A stretch of DNA of 64,000 nucleotides, taken from contig DYKB01000002.1 of NCBI GenBank assembly GCA_020722815.1, positions 62,001 to 126,000 on the forward strand, in the 5' to 3' direction. The notes beneath the pieces are model-generated. The model was not told where the DNA came from. It did not search any database and worked only from the letters and a program-made list of their open reading frames with translations. Made by a program: the position numbers and the translations under genes. Each line of letters opens with the position of its first letter. Within the stretch, counting starts at the first letter, position 1. Below, one piece after another: positions 1 through 5,691 of the stretch. Source of the stretch: Caldithrix sp. Lineage in GTDB: Bacteria; Zhuqueibacterota; Zhuqueibacteria; Thermofontimicrobiales; Sulfurfontimicrobiaceae.

Positions 1-159
1 GGAAAACAGTTTACGCAGGAAAGACTGGAACAGTGTTTCCAAAAGCAATGGGATCATCCCCGTCAATTGATTCAAAATATACTGGAAGAAATCAAATTAT
101 TTTCATCCGGGGCACCACAACATGATGACATGACAATTCTGGCGCTTACGTGGTGGTAA
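1..159 (+). CDS. PP2C/SpoIIE-type serine phosphatase, C-terminal fragment
   Basis: Open from the window edge to TAA at 157-159 (52 codons). The last residues read SSGAPQHDDMTILALTW, the usual end of a SpoIIE/RsbU phosphatase domain: a Gly-x-x-x-Asp-Asp-(M/I)-Thr motif whose aspartates bind the catalytic metal, followed by a final beta strand. Such enzymes dephosphorylate STAS anti-anti-sigma proteins. The genes that follow (kinase at 540, STAS at 956) are exactly its usual partners, which supports the call. The N-terminal sensor part lies outside the window. Confidence 0.75.
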   Translation, partial: GKQFTQERLEQCFQKQWDHPRQLIQNILEEIKLFSSGAPQHDDMTILALTWW

Positions 160-227
160 AATTTTTTTACCGGGCATAATAATTGCGTGATAAAAACAAT
201 TTTGTAAAGACTCCGGCGGGTTAGACG

Positions 228-386
228 ATAAATTTTGTAACCGTTCACAGATTCAACGTTTCATGTTTAAGGATGGATAATTCTGGCGGAATCCGGCGCT
301 ATTCGTAAAGTTGTTTCATCAAAAGCAGCATTAAAAAAATAACCGGGAACGTTGAACGCAGAACCTGTGAAAGGTTACGAAATTTT
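228..386. repeat. Imperfect inverted repeat in the 160-539 gap
   Basis: The 380-base gap between phosphatase and kinase holds no gene. It contains two arms, about 231-262 and 346-386, that are imperfect reverse complements (TTTTGTAACC, TTCACAG and TTCAACGTT on the left; AACGTTGAA, CTGTGAAAGGTTAC on the right). The arms resemble the GTAAC...GGTTC elements at 32.56, 41.2, 53.67 and 60.2 kb. A hairpin here could act as terminator or processing site. Confidence 0.45.
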
Positions 387-539
387 GTACTCAATTAAGC
401 ATTAATAGTGATTTAATATTGTCATTGATAGCCTAAAAATAAATATTGGTAAAAAGGCCACACAATGACAACTTCAAATAAACTTTAATTGCTCTATTTT
501 TTAAATTGGATTTTAATCAACAATTAAATCTGGCGTCCA

Positions 540-959
540 ATGGATGAAACAATTGAAATAAAAATACCGGGAAATCCAAAATTCTTAAAGCTGGTACGAC
601 ATTCAGTGCAAAATTTATGTACCCTGCTGGGATTTTCAACCCGTGAAGCAAATCATATCACGCTGGCGATTGATGAAGCCTGTTCGAATATTATTCGGCA
701 TGCCTACGGTGGAAAAACGAAGAAGCCGATTATTCTGAAAGCGATGATTATGCCGGATCGAATTCGTTTTATGATTTACGATCAGGGTAAACCCGCATCG
801 CCTGAAGCTTTCCAATCGCGGGATCTGGATGATATCCGTCCAGGCGGTTTGGGAGTGCATTTAATAAAAAGTGTCATGGATAAATTTGAGTATCATCATC
901 TTGCAGAAATGAATGAGCTAATACTTGAGAAAAATATTTCGCACCCGGTGGAGGTTTGA
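540..959 (+). CDS. RsbW-like anti-sigma factor / serine kinase
   Basis: A 139-residue single-domain GHKL (HATPase_c_2) protein. The N-box is E46-A-C-S-N50, the G1 box D81-Q-G83 and the G2 box GGLGVHLI at 102-109. Family role: bind a sigma factor and phosphorylate an STAS antagonist with ATP. The gene overlaps the STAS start by four bases (TTGA), so the pair is translationally coupled. No good ribosome site precedes the ATG at 540. No sigma factor gene is visible nearby, so its target is unknown. The Mla-type transporter just downstream makes a non-sigma target (the STAS subunit itself) possible. It is a cytoplasmic protein. Confidence 0.85.
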   Translation: MDETIEIKIPGNPKFLKLVRHSVQNLCTLLGFSTREANHITLAIDEACSNIIRHAYGGKTKKPIILKAMIMPDRIRFMIYDQGKPASPEAFQSRDLDDIRPGGLGVHLIKSVMDKFEYHHLAEMNELILEKNISHPVEV

Positions 960-1300
960 CATTGCAGGTAAATATAAAATCGAATCAAAGTGGAATCACG
1001 ATCATTGAACTATTTGGTGAAATTGACCTGGATAGTTCACCTGACGTCAGAAAACAGATTCTGACAATTACCCAGAAAAAATCACCCAAAATAATTATTA
1101 ATCTCGCGGGGGTGACCTATATGGATAGTTCCGGTGTCGCGACGATGGTTGAAGGCTTGCAACGAACGAATGCTTATAATGGTCTTTTTGTATTGGTCAA
1201 TCTGGGACCTGGCGTTCGTGAAGTATTCGAATTAAGTCGGCTCGATAAGGTCTTTAAAATATATGCAGATATCAATGAAGCGCTTAAAAAATTGGAATAG
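956..1300 (+). CDS. STAS-domain protein (anti-anti-sigma / MlaB-like)
   Basis: 114 residues spanning one STAS domain. The conserved phospho-acceptor loop MDSSGV is at 56-61, with Ser58 aligning with the phosphorylated serine of SpoIIAA/RsbV. The start is TTG at 956, overlapping the kinase stop; a second TTG at 962 is possible. Only six bases separate its stop from the MlaE-like permease gene. STAS proteins serve both as anti-anti-sigma factors and as MlaB, the cytoplasmic subunit that controls MlaF ATPase activity. This one sits between both partner sets, so either or both roles fit. The canonical DSSG loop favours regulation by phosphorylation. Confidence 0.85.
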   Translation: MTLQVNIKSNQSGITIIELFGEIDLDSSPDVRKQILTITQKKSPKIIINLAGVTYMDSSGVATMVEGLQRTNAYNGLFVLVNLGPGVREVFELSRLDKVFKIYADINEALKKLE

Positions 1301-1306
1301 AAGCGA

Positions 1307-2104
1307 ATGATTTATCAATTACTGGGAGATATTGGCAGAAAATCCCTTCTTTTTTTTAAACATATCACCAACTTTACTTACCTGGTAAAAGACGCGTTAT
1401 TTTGGATTTTTATTGCGCCGTTTAAAGGCAAAAATATACCCTGGCAAAATACAGCGAAACAGATGGTCAAAGTTGGGGTGGATTCCATTCCGATTGTGAC
1501 GATAATAACTTTCTTTGTGGGTTTAATTATTGCCATGCAATCCGCCTATCAATTGGAGCGATTTGGCGCACTGATTTATGTCGCGGATCTGGTTGCTGTT
1601 TCAATCACCCGCGAATTGGGACCACTCATCACGGCGATTATTATTACCGGGAGAAGTGGTTCAGCGATTGCTGCTGAGCTGGGAACAATGAAGGTTTATG
1701 AAGAAATTGATGCGTTGAGTACCATGGGTATCAATCCAGTCAAATTCCTGGTGGTGCCGCGATTTCTGGCACTGGCAGTGATGGTTCCCTGCCTGACGTT
1801 GCTGGCGGACTTAATGGGTATTGCCGGTGGTTTCACCCTGGCAACGACGGCTTTGAATCTGGATTTTGTCCGTTTTTTTTATCAAACCGTGAATGCACTG
1901 GCCTTAAAAGATTTGGCGACAGGTTTAACCAAGAGTTTTTTCTTTGCCTTAATCATCGCCGGTATGGGCTGTTATCAGGGCTTTATTGTTAAAGGCGGCG
2001 CTGAAGGCGTTGGAAAAGCCACAACGCAATCGGTTGTCACTTCAATTTTTTTAATAATTATGGCAGATATGGTTTTCACTGCTATTTTCTTTTCAACTTT
2101 TTAA
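1307..2104 (+). CDS. mlaE: MlaE-family ABC transporter permease
   Basis: 265 residues, the usual length of MlaE/YrbE permeases. Hydrophobic segments lie around 60-85, 90-125, 150-185, 205-230 and 240-264. The family signature is present near 103-140 (ELGPL, TGRSGSAIAAELG, V.EEIDAL). MlaE dimers form the inner-membrane core of MCE complexes that move phospholipids or other lipids between inner and outer membrane. Next come the ATPase (38 bases downstream), the MCE protein and a lipoprotein: the full mla order. Start is ATG six bases after the STAS stop. Confidence 0.92.
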   Translation: MIYQLLGDIGRKSLLFFKHITNFTYLVKDALFWIFIAPFKGKNIPWQNTAKQMVKVGVDSIPIVTIITFFVGLIIAMQSAYQLERFGALIYVADLVAVSITRELGPLITAIIITGRSGSAIAAELGTMKVYEEIDALSTMGINPVKFLVVPRFLALAVMVPCLTLLADLMGIAGGFTLATTALNLDFVRFFYQTVNALALKDLATGLTKSFFFALIIAGMGCYQGFIVKGGAEGVGKATTQSVVTSIFLIIMADMVFTAIFFSTF

Positions 2105-2142
2105 TTATGAATGAATATCAAGTTTTTCCTTAAAAACAGAGC

Positions 2143-2928
2143 ATGAAAGAACCAATTATTCAAATACGCGATCTAGTTACTTATTATGGTTCCCGAAAAA
2201 TCCTGGATGGCATATCATTAGATATTTTTCCGGGCGAGACCATCGTTATTTTAGGCCGTTCCGGCTGCGGGAAAAGTACATTATTGCGGCATATGATCGG
2301 TCTTTCACGCCCAACTTCCGGCCAAATTATTATCAAAGGACAGGATATCACGAGTAAACAAGAGGATGAACTGATTCATATTTTGAAACGAATTGGCATG
2401 CTGTTTCAAAGTGCTGCCCTTTTTAATTCGATGACCATTGGGCAGAATGTCGCATTACCGCTTAAGGAGCATACCCAACTGGAAGATTCGACGATTCGTA
2501 TTATGACGCGCATGAAACTGGAACAGGTAGGATTATCTGGTTTTGAAGATTTTATGCCCTCCCAACTGTCTGGCGGGATGCGCAAACGCGCCGGTCTGGC
2601 ACGAGCGATTGCGATGGACCCTGAAATCTTGTTCTGTGATGAACCTTCGGCGGGTCTTGATCCCGTGGTCGCGATTGGAATCGATCAGTTGTTAATCAAT
2701 CTTAAAAAAGCCTTTAAAATGACGCTGGTCGTGGTAACCCATGAACTGGAATCAGTTAAATTAATTGCAGATCGGGTTGCCATGCTGCATGAGGGTAAAT
2801 TAATCGCCTGTGATACATTGGATAACGTAATGCATTCGGATAATATCCAGATACAAAACTTTTTTAATCGGGTGCCGGAAACTGAATTTAAAGACCCTGA
2901 TCTATATTTAAAGTCCTTGTTTGAATGA
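2143..2928 (+). CDS. mlaF: MlaF-family ABC transporter ATPase
   Basis: 261 residues. Walker A GRSGCGKST at 38-46, Q-loop FQSA near 88, signature LSGGMRKR at 142-149, Walker B ILFCDEP at 162-168, switch His in VTHE near 199. The Met in the signature (SGGMRKR) is typical of MlaF/Ttg2A. It powers the lipid transporter with the upstream permease and the downstream MCE protein. Its TGA overlaps an ATG of the next frame (ATGA at 2925), showing tight operon packing. Confidence 0.93.
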   Translation: MKEPIIQIRDLVTYYGSRKILDGISLDIFPGETIVILGRSGCGKSTLLRHMIGLSRPTSGQIIIKGQDITSKQEDELIHILKRIGMLFQSAALFNSMTIGQNVALPLKEHTQLEDSTIRIMTRMKLEQVGLSGFEDFMPSQLSGGMRKRAGLARAIAMDPEILFCDEPSAGLDPVVAIGIDQLLINLKKAFKMTLVVVTHELESVKLIADRVAMLHEGKLIACDTLDNVMHSDNIQIQNFFNRVPETEFKDPDLYLKSLFE

Positions 2929-2939
2929 GGTGTTTTTGC

Positions 2940-3839
2940 ATGACAAATTATACAACAGATGAAGTAAAAGCGGGTTTAATGGTGGTCATCAGTGGATTTA
3001 TTCTGGTCGTTTTCATATTTTTTATTTCAGGATTGAATCTTGGAAAAAAGACGAAAATCTATGCTGTTAAATTAAAACATACCGGCGGGGTTGTGGTTGG
3101 TTCTTTGGTCCGCTATGGGGGCATGGAAGTCGGAAAAATAACTGAAGTCCAGATTTCTGAACCAGATAACACCTATCTTGAAATGAAAATCGAGGTTGAT
3201 GATAAAACCCCGATAAAAGTTGATTCAAAAGCTTTTTTATCAGCTTTGGGACTTTTAGGGGATTATTACATCGAAATTTCACCGGGAACGCTGACGGCGC
3301 CCGAATTACCGCCCGGAAGTCCCATTCCCAGTCAGGAAACCACGCAATTTACGCAATTGACCGAGCCTTTTGAAGATATGAGTGTAAAATTGCAGGATTT
3401 AATTGATCGGATCAATGACTTATTAAATGATAACAGTCGGGAACATGTTTCCTCGATGTTATCGAGTATGGATTCGATACTGGCTGGGAATGTCGGTAAT
3501 ATTAACGGGATTATGTCTAATTTAAAAGAAACCACTGCGAATTTTCAACGCATCAGTCAGCAACTGGATCTAATGATAAATAACGATAATATTCAGATTG
3601 AGGAAACCTGGAAAACTTTAAACAGGACGATTGAAGAGGTTCATTTATTGACGCAGGAATTGCAGAAAACAACTGGTAATCTGAATCAGATGGTTGTTTC
3701 CAGTGATCAGAATTTGACGACCATTTTAAACGATCTGGAACAAACCACGCGCAATCTCAATCAATTCAGCCAGCAAATAAAAGAACAGCCCTGGAGTTTA
3801 ATTAGAAAATCGTCACCCAAACCGCGTGAATTGCCCTGA
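2940..3839 (+). CDS. mlaD: MlaD-type MCE substrate-binding protein
   Basis: One N-terminal membrane helix (about 12-34, rich in V, I, F) anchors a periplasmic MCE domain (about 40-120, with GGVVVGSLVRYGGMEVG and a DYYIEI-like strand), followed by a long helical, coiled-coil-prone tail (about 145-290) rich in Asn, Gln and Leu. I chose ATG 2940 (MTNYTTDEVKAGL) because GAGG lies nine bases upstream; ATG 2925, overlapping mlaF, would add five residues. MCE rings carry lipids across the periplasm. The tail is longer than in E. coli MlaD and resembles Mce4/LetB-like or plant TGD2-like proteins that may span further toward the outer membrane. Confidence 0.9.
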   Translation: MTNYTTDEVKAGLMVVISGFILVVFIFFISGLNLGKKTKIYAVKLKHTGGVVVGSLVRYGGMEVGKITEVQISEPDNTYLEMKIEVDDKTPIKVDSKAFLSALGLLGDYYIEISPGTLTAPELPPGSPIPSQETTQFTQLTEPFEDMSVKLQDLIDRINDLLNDNSREHVSSMLSSMDSILAGNVGNINGIMSNLKETTANFQRISQQLDLMINNDNIQIEETWKTLNRTIEEVHLLTQELQKTTGNLNQMVVSSDQNLTTILNDLEQTTRNLNQFSQQIKEQPWSLIRKSSPKPRELP

Positions 3840-3884
3840 TAATTTTGTAAATAACTTTAAAATCATAAAGAGTTTGAGGAGTTT

Positions 3885-4484
3885 ATGGATATTAAATATC
3901 TGATAATCGTATTATTTTCGTTTCTTATCATAAGTTGCGGCAAACCGCCTGATATTCATTATTATATACTGGACGTTTCTTCGAAAACCGAAAGTAAACT
4001 CAATTCAAAATTTGATGGGGTGATTGCGATTGCCCCGGTTACTGCTGATGAGGCGTACACCGATGATCGGTTGATTTATCGCGATTCACCATATCAGATT
4101 AAATTTTACCATTATCATCGCTGGGTAACGTCACCTGTCACATTAATAGAATCAAAACTATATACGAAAATTAAAAAAAGTGGTTTGGCGACCTCTGTCC
4201 TCCGACAACCCTATTCTATTGCGCCGGATTTGCTATTAAATACCCATCTCATCGCGCTCCAGGAAAAAGACGAAAATGAAAAATGGTATGGTGAAATAAT
4301 TTTAATGTTCTCGCTGGTTGATCTAAAAAACAATACCACGGTCTGGCAGCAAGAATTCGCTAATCGTGTACCAGTTTCGGAACGAAAACCTGAAGCTGTG
4401 GTGGAAGCCATCAATTTAGCTTTTGACAAATGTCTCGATGAACTGATTGTGGCTTTAGATGCGCAGCTTGCCAGGGTCAACTAA
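3885..4484 (+). CDS. PqiC/DUF330-like ABC transport auxiliary lipoprotein
   Basis: 199 residues. A signal peptide with lipobox (LIIS-C18) is followed by PDIHYYILD, the typical opening of the ABC-type transport auxiliary lipoprotein family (PqiC, YajI-like), which starts with a Y-x-L strand and ends in an amphipathic helix. Ribosome site GAGGAG sits five bases before the ATG. Members sit at the end of MCE operons and are thought to link the MCE tube to the outer membrane. Position 45 bases after the MCE gene agrees. The predicted location is outer-membrane lipoprotein facing the periplasm. Confidence 0.8.
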   Translation: MDIKYLIIVLFSFLIISCGKPPDIHYYILDVSSKTESKLNSKFDGVIAIAPVTADEAYTDDRLIYRDSPYQIKFYHYHRWVTSPVTLIESKLYTKIKKSGLATSVLRQPYSIAPDLLLNTHLIALQEKDENEKWYGEIILMFSLVDLKNNTTVWQQEFANRVPVSERKPEAVVEAINLAFDKCLDELIVALDAQLARVN

Positions 4485-4650: not shown

Positions 4651-5691
4651 ATGCGGCGAATGACGGTTTATCTTCTTATTTTAACAACAATTTACTTCCT
4701 GAGTTGCGGAAAAAGCCTTGAACCACTCCAGGAAATTGCAAAAGATTCAGCACAATACCAATATTTTAAAGAATTATCGAAAAATATCCCGCTGGTTGAT
4801 CCCGATCGGGATGTGCTGTTATTGGAAACCACTGAATTTAAGATATCCACAAAGAATATTTTATTGATGATTTATCAAAATTTATATGATGCGACCGGTG
4901 GCGATGTTCAAAGGATTAAAAATGAACCAACAGAGCGAATTAAAGCCTTTATTCTGGATGGTGCCCAGCGGATTGCCGAAAACCGGCTCCTTCTGCTCGA
5001 AGCCATTAAAGCAGGTTATAAGGTGAGTGAGGATACGGTTAAAAAGACCCTGGATTCACTCATTTTGAAAGCAAAAGGAGCGGAACAATTCAACAACGAA
5101 TTGAAAAAAAGAAATATGACCCTGGAAGATGTCAAACGCGATATTGCTGATTCCTATATTTTAAACAAATATGTTAAGGAATATATTCTGGCCAGCGTAA
5201 AAGTTTCTGACAGCGAAGTTATGGCCGTTTATAGCCAGGATAAAAAAGCAACCGTGCGACACATCGTGAAAATTACCAAAGACAGGGGAGAGGCTGATAA
5301 AGCCGCTATTCGTCAACAAATCGAGGGAATACTGGGACAACTTCGTGGTGGCGCTGATTTCGCCAAAATTGCTGAAAAATATTCGGATGATCCCGGCGGA
5401 CGCAAAAATGGTGGATTGATTAAAAATATTGAACGCGGTGAACTCTTCCCGAATTTGGACAATGCTATTTTCACCACACCCGTCGGTGAAACGAGTGAAA
5501 TCGTCGAAACCGAATTGGGTTATCATATTGTTAAAATTATCGAACGTCAACGCGATTCACGGCCATTTGAAGAAGCCAAGAAGCAAATCATCGAAGAACT
5601 CTCCCAGCCAATGCGCCAGAAAGCCCTCCAGGACAAAATCGATGAATTGAAACAAAAATATCAGATGAAGATTGTGGCGCTGCCTTCCTGA
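4651..5691 (+). CDS. Lipoprotein parvulin-type peptidyl-prolyl isomerase (PpiC/SurA/PrsA-like)
   Basis: 346 residues. The signal peptide ends in a lipobox (YFLS-C19). Residues 50-195 form a helical SurA_N-like chaperone region with a disordered charged linker; about 200-305 is a rotamase domain (RHIVK at its start, then FAKIAEKYSDDPGG, GGLI, and ELGYHIVKI near its end). The C-terminal helix is Lys/Gln rich. It would catalyse prolyl isomerisation and help fold exported or outer-membrane proteins. AGAAGGGG lies seven bases before the ATG. It is close to an MCE operon, and both serve envelope biogenesis. Confidence 0.9.
   Translation: MRRMTVYLLILTTIYFLSCGKSLEPLQEIAKDSAQYQYFKELSKNIPLVDPDRDVLLLETTEFKISTKNILLMIYQNLYDATGGDVQRIKNEPTERIKAFILDGAQRIAENRLLLLEAIKAGYKVSEDTVKKTLDSLILKAKGAEQFNNELKKRNMTLEDVKRDIADSYILNKYVKEYILASVKVSDSEVMAVYSQDKKATVRHIVKITKDRGEADKAAIRQQIEGILGQLRGGADFAKIAEKYSDDPGGRKNGGLIKNIERGELFPNLDNAIFTTPVGETSEIVETELGYHIVKIIERQRDSRPFEEAKKQIIEELSQPMRQKALQDKIDELKQKYQMKIVALPS

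Follow-up and report, generated by a model that had tools for sequence, protein, structure and literature searches.

The window, a 64,000-nt stretch of a Caldithrix sp. genome (contig DYKB01000002.1), opens with a run of genes on the forward strand that encode a GAF-SpoIIE phosphatase, an RsbW/SpoIIAB-type kinase, a STAS protein, MlaE, MlaF, an MCE protein, and a PqiC-like lipoprotein. Only the C-terminal end of the RsbU-like serine phosphatase lies within the window (positions 1–159). Its full-length gene starts 1169 bases upstream (G000:C153:60831-62159; L004:10831-12159) and encodes 442 aa, with whole-gene Pfam matches to SpoIIE (1e-48) and GAF (3.8e-22). After a gap of 380 bases comes the serine kinase (HATPase_c_2, 139 aa, 540–959, Pfam 1.9e-25), whose end at 959 overlaps by 4 bases the gene of the 114-aa STAS switch protein, which begins with a TTG at 956 (956–1300, Pfam STAS 6.4e-22, TIGR00377 above cut-off). 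Six bases further lies the gene for the MlaE-family permease (265 aa, 1307–2104, Pfam 8.9e-81, TIGR00056 above cut-off), followed by those for the MlaF-type ABC ATPase (261 aa, 2143–2928, Pfam ABC_tran 8.3e-35), an MlaD-like MCE-domain substrate-binding protein (304 aa, 2925–3839, Pfam MlaD 8.9e-16), and the PqiC-like lipoprotein with its N-terminal lipobox LIISC (199 aa, 3885–4484, Pfam ABC_trans_aux 6.8e-13). The Pfam matches from kinase to lipoprotein all exceed the Pfam cut-offs. Downstream, a PpiC-type peptidyl-prolyl isomerase gene (4651–5691, forward strand, Pfam Rotamase 4e-24) is probably transcribed in the operon's direction and is a putative member of it.

These coordinates and domain matches agree with the gene order, the 4-base overlap, and the 6-base gap given in a first-pass annotation of this DNA, and the phosphatase end described there is the terminus of a complete gene. 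The same annotation spoke of an MCE/Mla operon. MlaE, MlaF, and an MCE protein are indeed encoded together, as in an MlaFEDB-type transporter; no MlaC gene was seen, however, and the transporter, with its PqiC-type lipoprotein, belongs to the MlaE/MlaF/MCE class rather than to the canonical Mla systems. The best NCBIfam model for the ATPase is MlaF, at a score below that model's cut-off, and MlaF structures of several species are among its best PDB matches.

Upstream of the transporter genes, the components of a partner switch are present: a HATPase_c_2 kinase, a STAS protein with a serine and a contact aspartate, and a SpoIIE-type phosphatase with a sensor domain, its GAF domain being the only sensor seen. 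Phosphatase/kinase/STAS sets of this type normally control sigma factors. The kinase has an intact N-box and G-box, with no variation at Glu46, Asn50, Asp81, or the GGxG box in 86/86 sequences; its Arg20 and the metal-binding Asp residues of the phosphatase are essentially invariant among relatives. Its closest solved structure is RsbW (6m36, 6e-14), and a kinase-STAS read-through model (pTM 0.77) has SpoIIAB/RsbW-like and SpoIIAA-like halves. The set is like the SpoIIE-SpoIIAB-SpoIIAA and RsbU-RsbW-RsbV switches of Bacillus in its three protein types, gene overlap style, STAS Asp/Ser/Ser triad, kinase catalytic residues, and closest solved structures. In contrast to the Bacillus switches, the gene order here is kinase then STAS, no sigma factor gene is present, and the genes that follow the switch are those of a lipid ABC transporter operon.

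This arrangement is highly conserved. A kinase-STAS pair directly precedes mlaE in all 57 genomes of the window's phylum that hold an mlaE orthologue (one further genome shows the same synteny on a fragment under the cut-off and is not counted), and the module recurs in Acidobacteriota, Hydrogenedentota, Auribacterota, Thermodesulfobacteriota, Nitrospinota, and Methylomirabilota. Because the synteny spans all 57 genomes and other phyla, chance adjacency of kinase-STAS and mlaE can be ruled out. The collection comprised under 100 distinct paired operons. Searching Acidobacteriota with the MlaE of one locus (L131) at E ≤ 1e-75 gave matches in 2 of 247; this threshold is too strict for estimating prevalence. 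Recent hitchhiking with polA was considered as well and rejected: outside the class the neighbors are different, and inside it the transporter block and SpoIIE can each be lost on their own. The phosphatase gene is present at 38/52 loci of our first set; its absence from part of the relatives counts against our preferred explanation.

The genes that recur around the pair are polA on the upstream side, SpoIIE, and ppiC or others unrelated to sigma factors, with no sigma factor gene among the recurrent neighbor families of the kinase/STAS/transporter loci, in line with the earlier remark that no classic target is seen. This bears on a classical switch, in which the kinase would act as an anti-sigma factor on a sigma factor whose gene lies elsewhere, the STAS protein would antagonize the kinase, and their location would be explained by sigma control of the operon or by shared ancestry. 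Such a switch would suit the classification of the STAS protein as an anti-sigma-factor antagonist (TIGR00377), SpoIIAA-like in sequence and fold, and also the persistence of an intact kinase in one genus (G026 and G047) that has lost the STAS and transporter genes from that place. Beyond the missing sigma genes, two features of the STAS protein make the classical switch unlikely. It stays before mlaE after the kinase has been lost, something not to be expected of an anti-sigma antagonist, and it carries Ala62 and Glu66, unlike 25 other STAS domains from three genomes, the same and related ones. The kinase of G026 and G047 may nonetheless have another target, because it remains intact after loss of STAS and transporter, and this orphan counts against a single target.

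Loci with and without a kinase separate two sets of conserved STAS residues. The first set follows the kinase: the triad of Asp24 (codon 1025–1027), the predicted kinase-contact residue, with Ser58, phospho-acceptor by homology, and Ser59 (codons 1127–1132) is complete in 85/85 loci with a kinase and in 0/37 without, and four phylogenetically independent pairs all agree. The position of Ser58 is numbered identically in SpoIIAA, and the residue equivalent to Asp24 aids kinase binding in SpoIIAA, RsbV, and SypA (PMC10120452). Each of the three residues is present in 86/86 sequences with a kinase; without one, aspartate is found at position 24 in 0/11 discrete and 4/26 fused STAS, Ser58 in 5/11 and 18/26, and Ser59 in 5/11 and 3/26. 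That Ser58, Ser59, and the ATP-binding and catalytic residues are invariant wherever the kinase is found, and that a phosphatase gene accompanies most loci, argues against a merely structural MlaB subunit that the kinase would chaperone or store but not regulate by phosphorylation. We regard this as very improbable, even though the genes overlap or nearly overlap in most loci and kinase and STAS share a single ORF at one, both of which would fit co-folding.

The second set of residues outlasts the kinase. At no fewer than three places on the MlaE tree, including repeated losses within Acidobacteriota, the kinase is missing while STAS still precedes mlaE, and six of these genomes contain no matching kinase anywhere. 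Arg32, Ala62, and Glu66 are kept in 11/11 loci where the kinase was lost and a separate STAS retained. This retention, together with the absence of Ala62 and Glu66 from the 25 other STAS domains, suggests that a second partner constrains the protein, which looks from these patterns as if it had evolved to serve both kinase and transporter.

Is this STAS protein the MlaB subunit, as the first-pass annotation proposed? Its sequence is SpoIIAA/RsbV-like and its position in the operon MlaB-like. The closest structures are SpoIIAA (1th8) and TM1442; a PDB search up to E 10 brings up no MlaB, and the curated MlaB model NF033618 (mlaB_1) does not match it, whereas TIGR00377 does. This SpoIIAA-like character counts against an MlaB-type role. 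The proposal is supported by the loci themselves: neither the operon nor its counterparts in relatives showed a second or separate MlaB, and the pair does not lie beside sigma factors. Like E. coli MlaB, the STAS protein occurs once per operon, encoded beside mlaE and mlaF, and has an alanine four positions after the phospho-site; E. coli MlaB, by contrast, is 97 aa long, has Thr52, lacks a kinase or phosphatase gene beside it, and shows no sequence match to the window protein in the PDB search.

The partner proteins are also alike. The C-terminal extension of the window's MlaF (...DPDLYLKSLFE, 2866–2925) corresponds by alignment to the handshake extension of E. coli MlaF (...GDYHADLLPGS), which docks at the MlaF-MlaB interface. 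It is present at loci with a separate STAS gene and is missing or different at fused and STAS-less loci. A contact between STAS and MlaF may be inferred from this extension together with the STAS residues kept after kinase loss; in a read-through model of a natural in-frame STAS-MlaE-MlaF stretch (L137, two stop codons read as Ser) the domains are confident and their arrangement is not (pTM 0.54). Elsewhere in this genome STAS and MlaE are paired only once, in a second transporter (C21) whose STAS domain is fused to MlaE; this locus has no kinase or phosphatase nearby, a relaxed triad, and an MlaF without the extension.

Taken together, the order of the genes, the conservation of this order, catalytic residues left intact, and the separate kinase- and transporter-linked conservation of STAS suggest with a probability of roughly 0.7 that the STAS protein is an MlaB-type subunit and that the kinase/phosphatase partner switch has the lipid transporter itself as its output. 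Because STAS appears fitted to both kinase and transporter, lipid traffic is probably switched by phosphorylation. STAS would bind MlaF and let the MlaFE ATPase work; phosphorylation of Ser58 by the kinase would break this binding and turn the transporter off, or the kinase might instead hold unphosphorylated STAS in a complex. A signal at the GAF domain would lead the SpoIIE phosphatase to strip the phosphate and turn the transporter on. We infer both the phosphorylation and the signal, and calling the signal stress-type, as was done earlier, is a guess.

Given the rest, this on/off polarity is reasonably likely. In E. coli, the phosphomimetic MlaB T52E (equivalent to Ser58) shows reduced MlaF binding, and without MlaB, MlaF is not retained on the complex (PMC7367683). 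The polarity could be opposite or different: STAS might be active as a subunit in its phosphorylated form, or the transporter might be bound by the kinase itself. E. coli MlaB T52A abolishes ATPase activity with MlaB still bound (PMC5016091), so residue 52/58 may do more than carry a phosphate, and activity may depend on its hydroxyl or on a modification of it. In Bordetella, the binding of BtrV to BtrW is favored by BtrV phosphorylation (PMC8256260). We nevertheless consider another polarity fairly unlikely, given T52E and the kinase-less STAS proteins. The latter have Ser, Thr, or Ala at position 58 and often lack Ser59, so the basic role as a subunit does not require phosphorylation.

STAS proteins acting downstream of a kinase or outside sigma control are known from SypE-SypA of Vibrio fischeri (PMC10120452) and BtrU/V/W of Bordetella (PMC8256260), which act on biofilm polysaccharide control and on type III secretion, respectively, rather than on a lipid ABC transporter. 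Among open-access papers we found no publication combining RsbW or partner switching with MlaE, though such absence is not proof. Two studies of the E. coli transporter, structural and biochemical, suggested that phosphorylation of Thr52 might control MlaB, without naming a kinase or settling the question (PMC7367683, PMC5016091). In the operon described here, the STAS subunit is accompanied by genes for a kinase and a phosphatase, and sequence evidence indicates that it serves two partners. Partner switches with an ABC transporter as direct output might, tentatively, be widespread, and the kinase-less STAS proteins of MlaFE systems might be remnants of switches that lost kinase and phosphatase; extending this to proteobacterial MlaB, possibly including that of E. 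coli, is conjecture. If the proposed switch is real, envelope lipid traffic would be under post-translational on/off control, partner switches would extend from transcription to transport, and this operon would offer a ready system for in vitro tests of MlaB phosphorylation.

The genes named in the first-pass annotation (the end of a phosphatase gene, then kinase, STAS, MlaE, MlaF, MCE and lipoprotein genes) all proved real as open reading frames with domain matches, within a genome of 7.29 Mb (window, G000:C153:62001-126000). Upstream DNA completes the set with a GAF-SpoIIE phosphatase of 442 aa that ends at window position 159. After a 380-base gap, the same (+) strand carries an HATPase_c_2 kinase (540-959), STAS (956-1300), MlaE (1307-2104), MlaF (2143-2928), MCE (2925-3839) and a PqiC-like lipoprotein (3885-4484), with PpiC, also on +, 166 bases later. 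A consensus scan found no excess of terminator-like sites over chance across the operon. Upstream of the window, a divergent cluster (L004:836-9337) encodes a PEGA-domain Ser/Thr kinase together with FHA/FG-GAP, PP2C and TPR proteins; this Ser/Thr kinase-FHA-PP2C cluster is possibly a second phospho-signalling unit. Of 52 loci in the closest MlaE group, 12 have the divergent Ser/Thr kinase upstream and 9 have the FHA protein there.

Some MlaE is found in all 60 relatives. The first-pass annotation had proposed counting how often a STAS-HATPase pair precedes mlaE; in the closest MlaE group it does so in 52/52 loci, on the same strand and directly adjoining. Likewise, in a phylum sample of 82 genomes, kinase-STAS stands in front of mlaE in every one of the 57 with an orthologue of that gene (E <= 1e-84). 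SpoIIE lies upstream of this kinase-STAS module in 38/52 loci. In 12 of the 14 without it, the gene immediately upstream of the kinase is polA, so this one site either holds the phosphatase gene or cleanly lacks it. Scanning 84,980 species and taking the best 80 MlaE loci, we also find the module, in many cases with SpoIIE, in Acidobacteriota, Hydrogenedentota, Auribacterota, Syntrophobacteraceae (Thermodesulfobacteriota), Nitrospinaceae and Methylomirabilota; other loci lack the kinase but have a STAS gene, encode STAS fused to MlaE, or have no STAS at all. Genes recurring next to the module are polA, those for the divergent Ser/Thr kinase and FHA protein, and those for a lytic transglycosylase, a PAS/response-regulator sensor protein and PpiC, with no sigma factor gene among them, in line with its absence from the initial reading.

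The STAS alignment comprises 86 sequences from distinct kinase-bearing loci, 11 separate STAS without an adjoining kinase and 26 fused STAS, with E. coli MlaB added. Asp24, Ser58 and Ser59 are each present in 86/86 STAS with kinase. Without kinase, they are found in 0/11, 5/11 and 5/11 separate STAS and in 4/26, 18/26 and 3/26 fused STAS, respectively. In the SypA-SypE and SpoIIAA-SpoIIAB comparison, the equivalents of these residues bind kinase arginines, are phosphorylated, and stabilise an arginine contacting the ATP gamma-phosphate, in that order (PMC10120452). The complete triad occurs in 85/85 MlaE-tree members with kinase versus 0/37 without; four of four phylogenetically independent pairs agree (sign test p 0.125, significance being out of reach at n=4). 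By contrast with this triad, Arg32, Ala62 and Glu66 are kept both with kinase (86/86) and in separate STAS without it (11/11). By our alignment they fall on helices 1 and 2, which make up the MlaF-binding face of MlaB (PMC7367683). Ala62 is shared by E. coli MlaB and by 23/26 fused STAS; in 25 STAS domains unlinked to mlaE (three genomes), its position holds Gly in 23, Ser in 2 and Ala in none, and that of Glu66, read by eye, never holds Glu (0/25). The STAS sequence reads as if it bears constraints from two partners, kinase and transporter.

Kinase Glu46, Asn50, Asp81 and the GGxG box are invariant across distinct loci (86/86), as is Arg20 (85/85), and the metal-binding Asp residues are kept in the SpoIIE phosphatase of aligned relatives. 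The closest solved structures are RsbW for the kinase, and SpoIIAA and TM1442 for STAS. A kinase-STAS read-through model (L083; pTM 0.77, linker disordered) suggests packing of its two halves against each other, and these match SpoIIAB/RsbW and SpoIIAA/RsbV, respectively. A STAS-MlaE-MlaF read-through model (L137) has good domains but reaches only pTM 0.54, their arrangement not being confident, and so speaks neither for nor against a STAS-MlaF contact. In both models, the STAS domain carries an additional strand and helix at its C-terminus, as SpoIIAA does and MlaB does not. In Hydrogenedentota, a single 230-aa open frame spans kinase and STAS (L116:6288-6980, JACRLJ010000003.1), which reflects either fusion of the genes or an indel in the assembly.

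The window MlaF ends in a segment matching the E. coli MlaF C-terminal extension, which in that species sits at the interface with MlaB, and so do all MlaF aligned from the group (47/47). Matching ends occur in other phyla, closely E. coli-like in L119 and L139-L141. The extension is missing from fused-STAS paralogues of the window's class and from STAS-less loci, and some fused loci outside this class have different tails. A second same-class transporter in the window's genome (L005, G000:C21:64000-82000) comprises MCE and PqiC-like genes, another gene, then a STAS-MlaE fusion gene and one for an MlaF lacking the extension; it has no kinase or phosphatase. Elsewhere, L006:1225-2025 (G000:C221) pairs an MlaE-like start with a segment that looks like the C-terminal half of the ORF next to it (L006:2748-3830), and is a chimera, a rearrangement or a misassembly. 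Several phylum genomes also carry another partner-switch unit without mlaE (L226, G000:C183:8000-22000; L214, L215, L228), in which a STAS gene with an ISSAGLG or YISSAG motif accompanies a kinase gene, with as many as two SpoIIE genes on either side.

Presence of the kinase on the MlaE tree requires seven gains or losses, at least five of them forced by well-supported branches, and in Acidobacteriota separate-STAS loci without kinase are nested among kinase-bearing ones. Searching seven genomes with kinase-less separate STAS for kinases resembling the L131 one (E <= 1e-6) found none in six; the seventh (L163) carries a complete module on a different contig, and its STAS retains DSSG. G012 has lost the STAS-to-PqiC block and retains a kinase remnant with a degraded GGLG box, a natural deletion. 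The remnant (L213, G012:C38:20000-30000) is flanked by polA and a SurA/PpiC-like gene, at the site that in sister genomes holds the entire STAS-transporter block. In genus g23 (G026 and G047; L217, G026:C63; L218, G047:C187), however, an intact kinase orthologue has no adjoining STAS or mlaE, the main evidence against a kinase with a single target.

We propose as most likely that unphosphorylated STAS would bind MlaF as MlaB does and hold the ATPase assembled and active, that phosphorylation of Ser58 by the kinase would release STAS from MlaF, and that the GAF-SpoIIE phosphatase, on signal, would restore it. Work in E. coli lends support: MlaF needs MlaB to remain on the complex, and MlaB T52E weakens MlaF binding (PMC7367683). 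MlaB T52A still binds yet is inactive (PMC5016091), so the on/off polarity is our inference and calls for caution. The MlaB papers leave phosphorylation of MlaB as an open possibility (PMC7367683, PMC5016091). The partner-switch half and the transporter half are each already known; the open-access literature we searched held no match for a partner switch joined to this transporter class. Judged by position and constraint, STAS most likely works like MlaB, yet it falls outside the curated MlaB family. By its parts the system is a partner switch, but by its setting it is not a sigma-factor switch.
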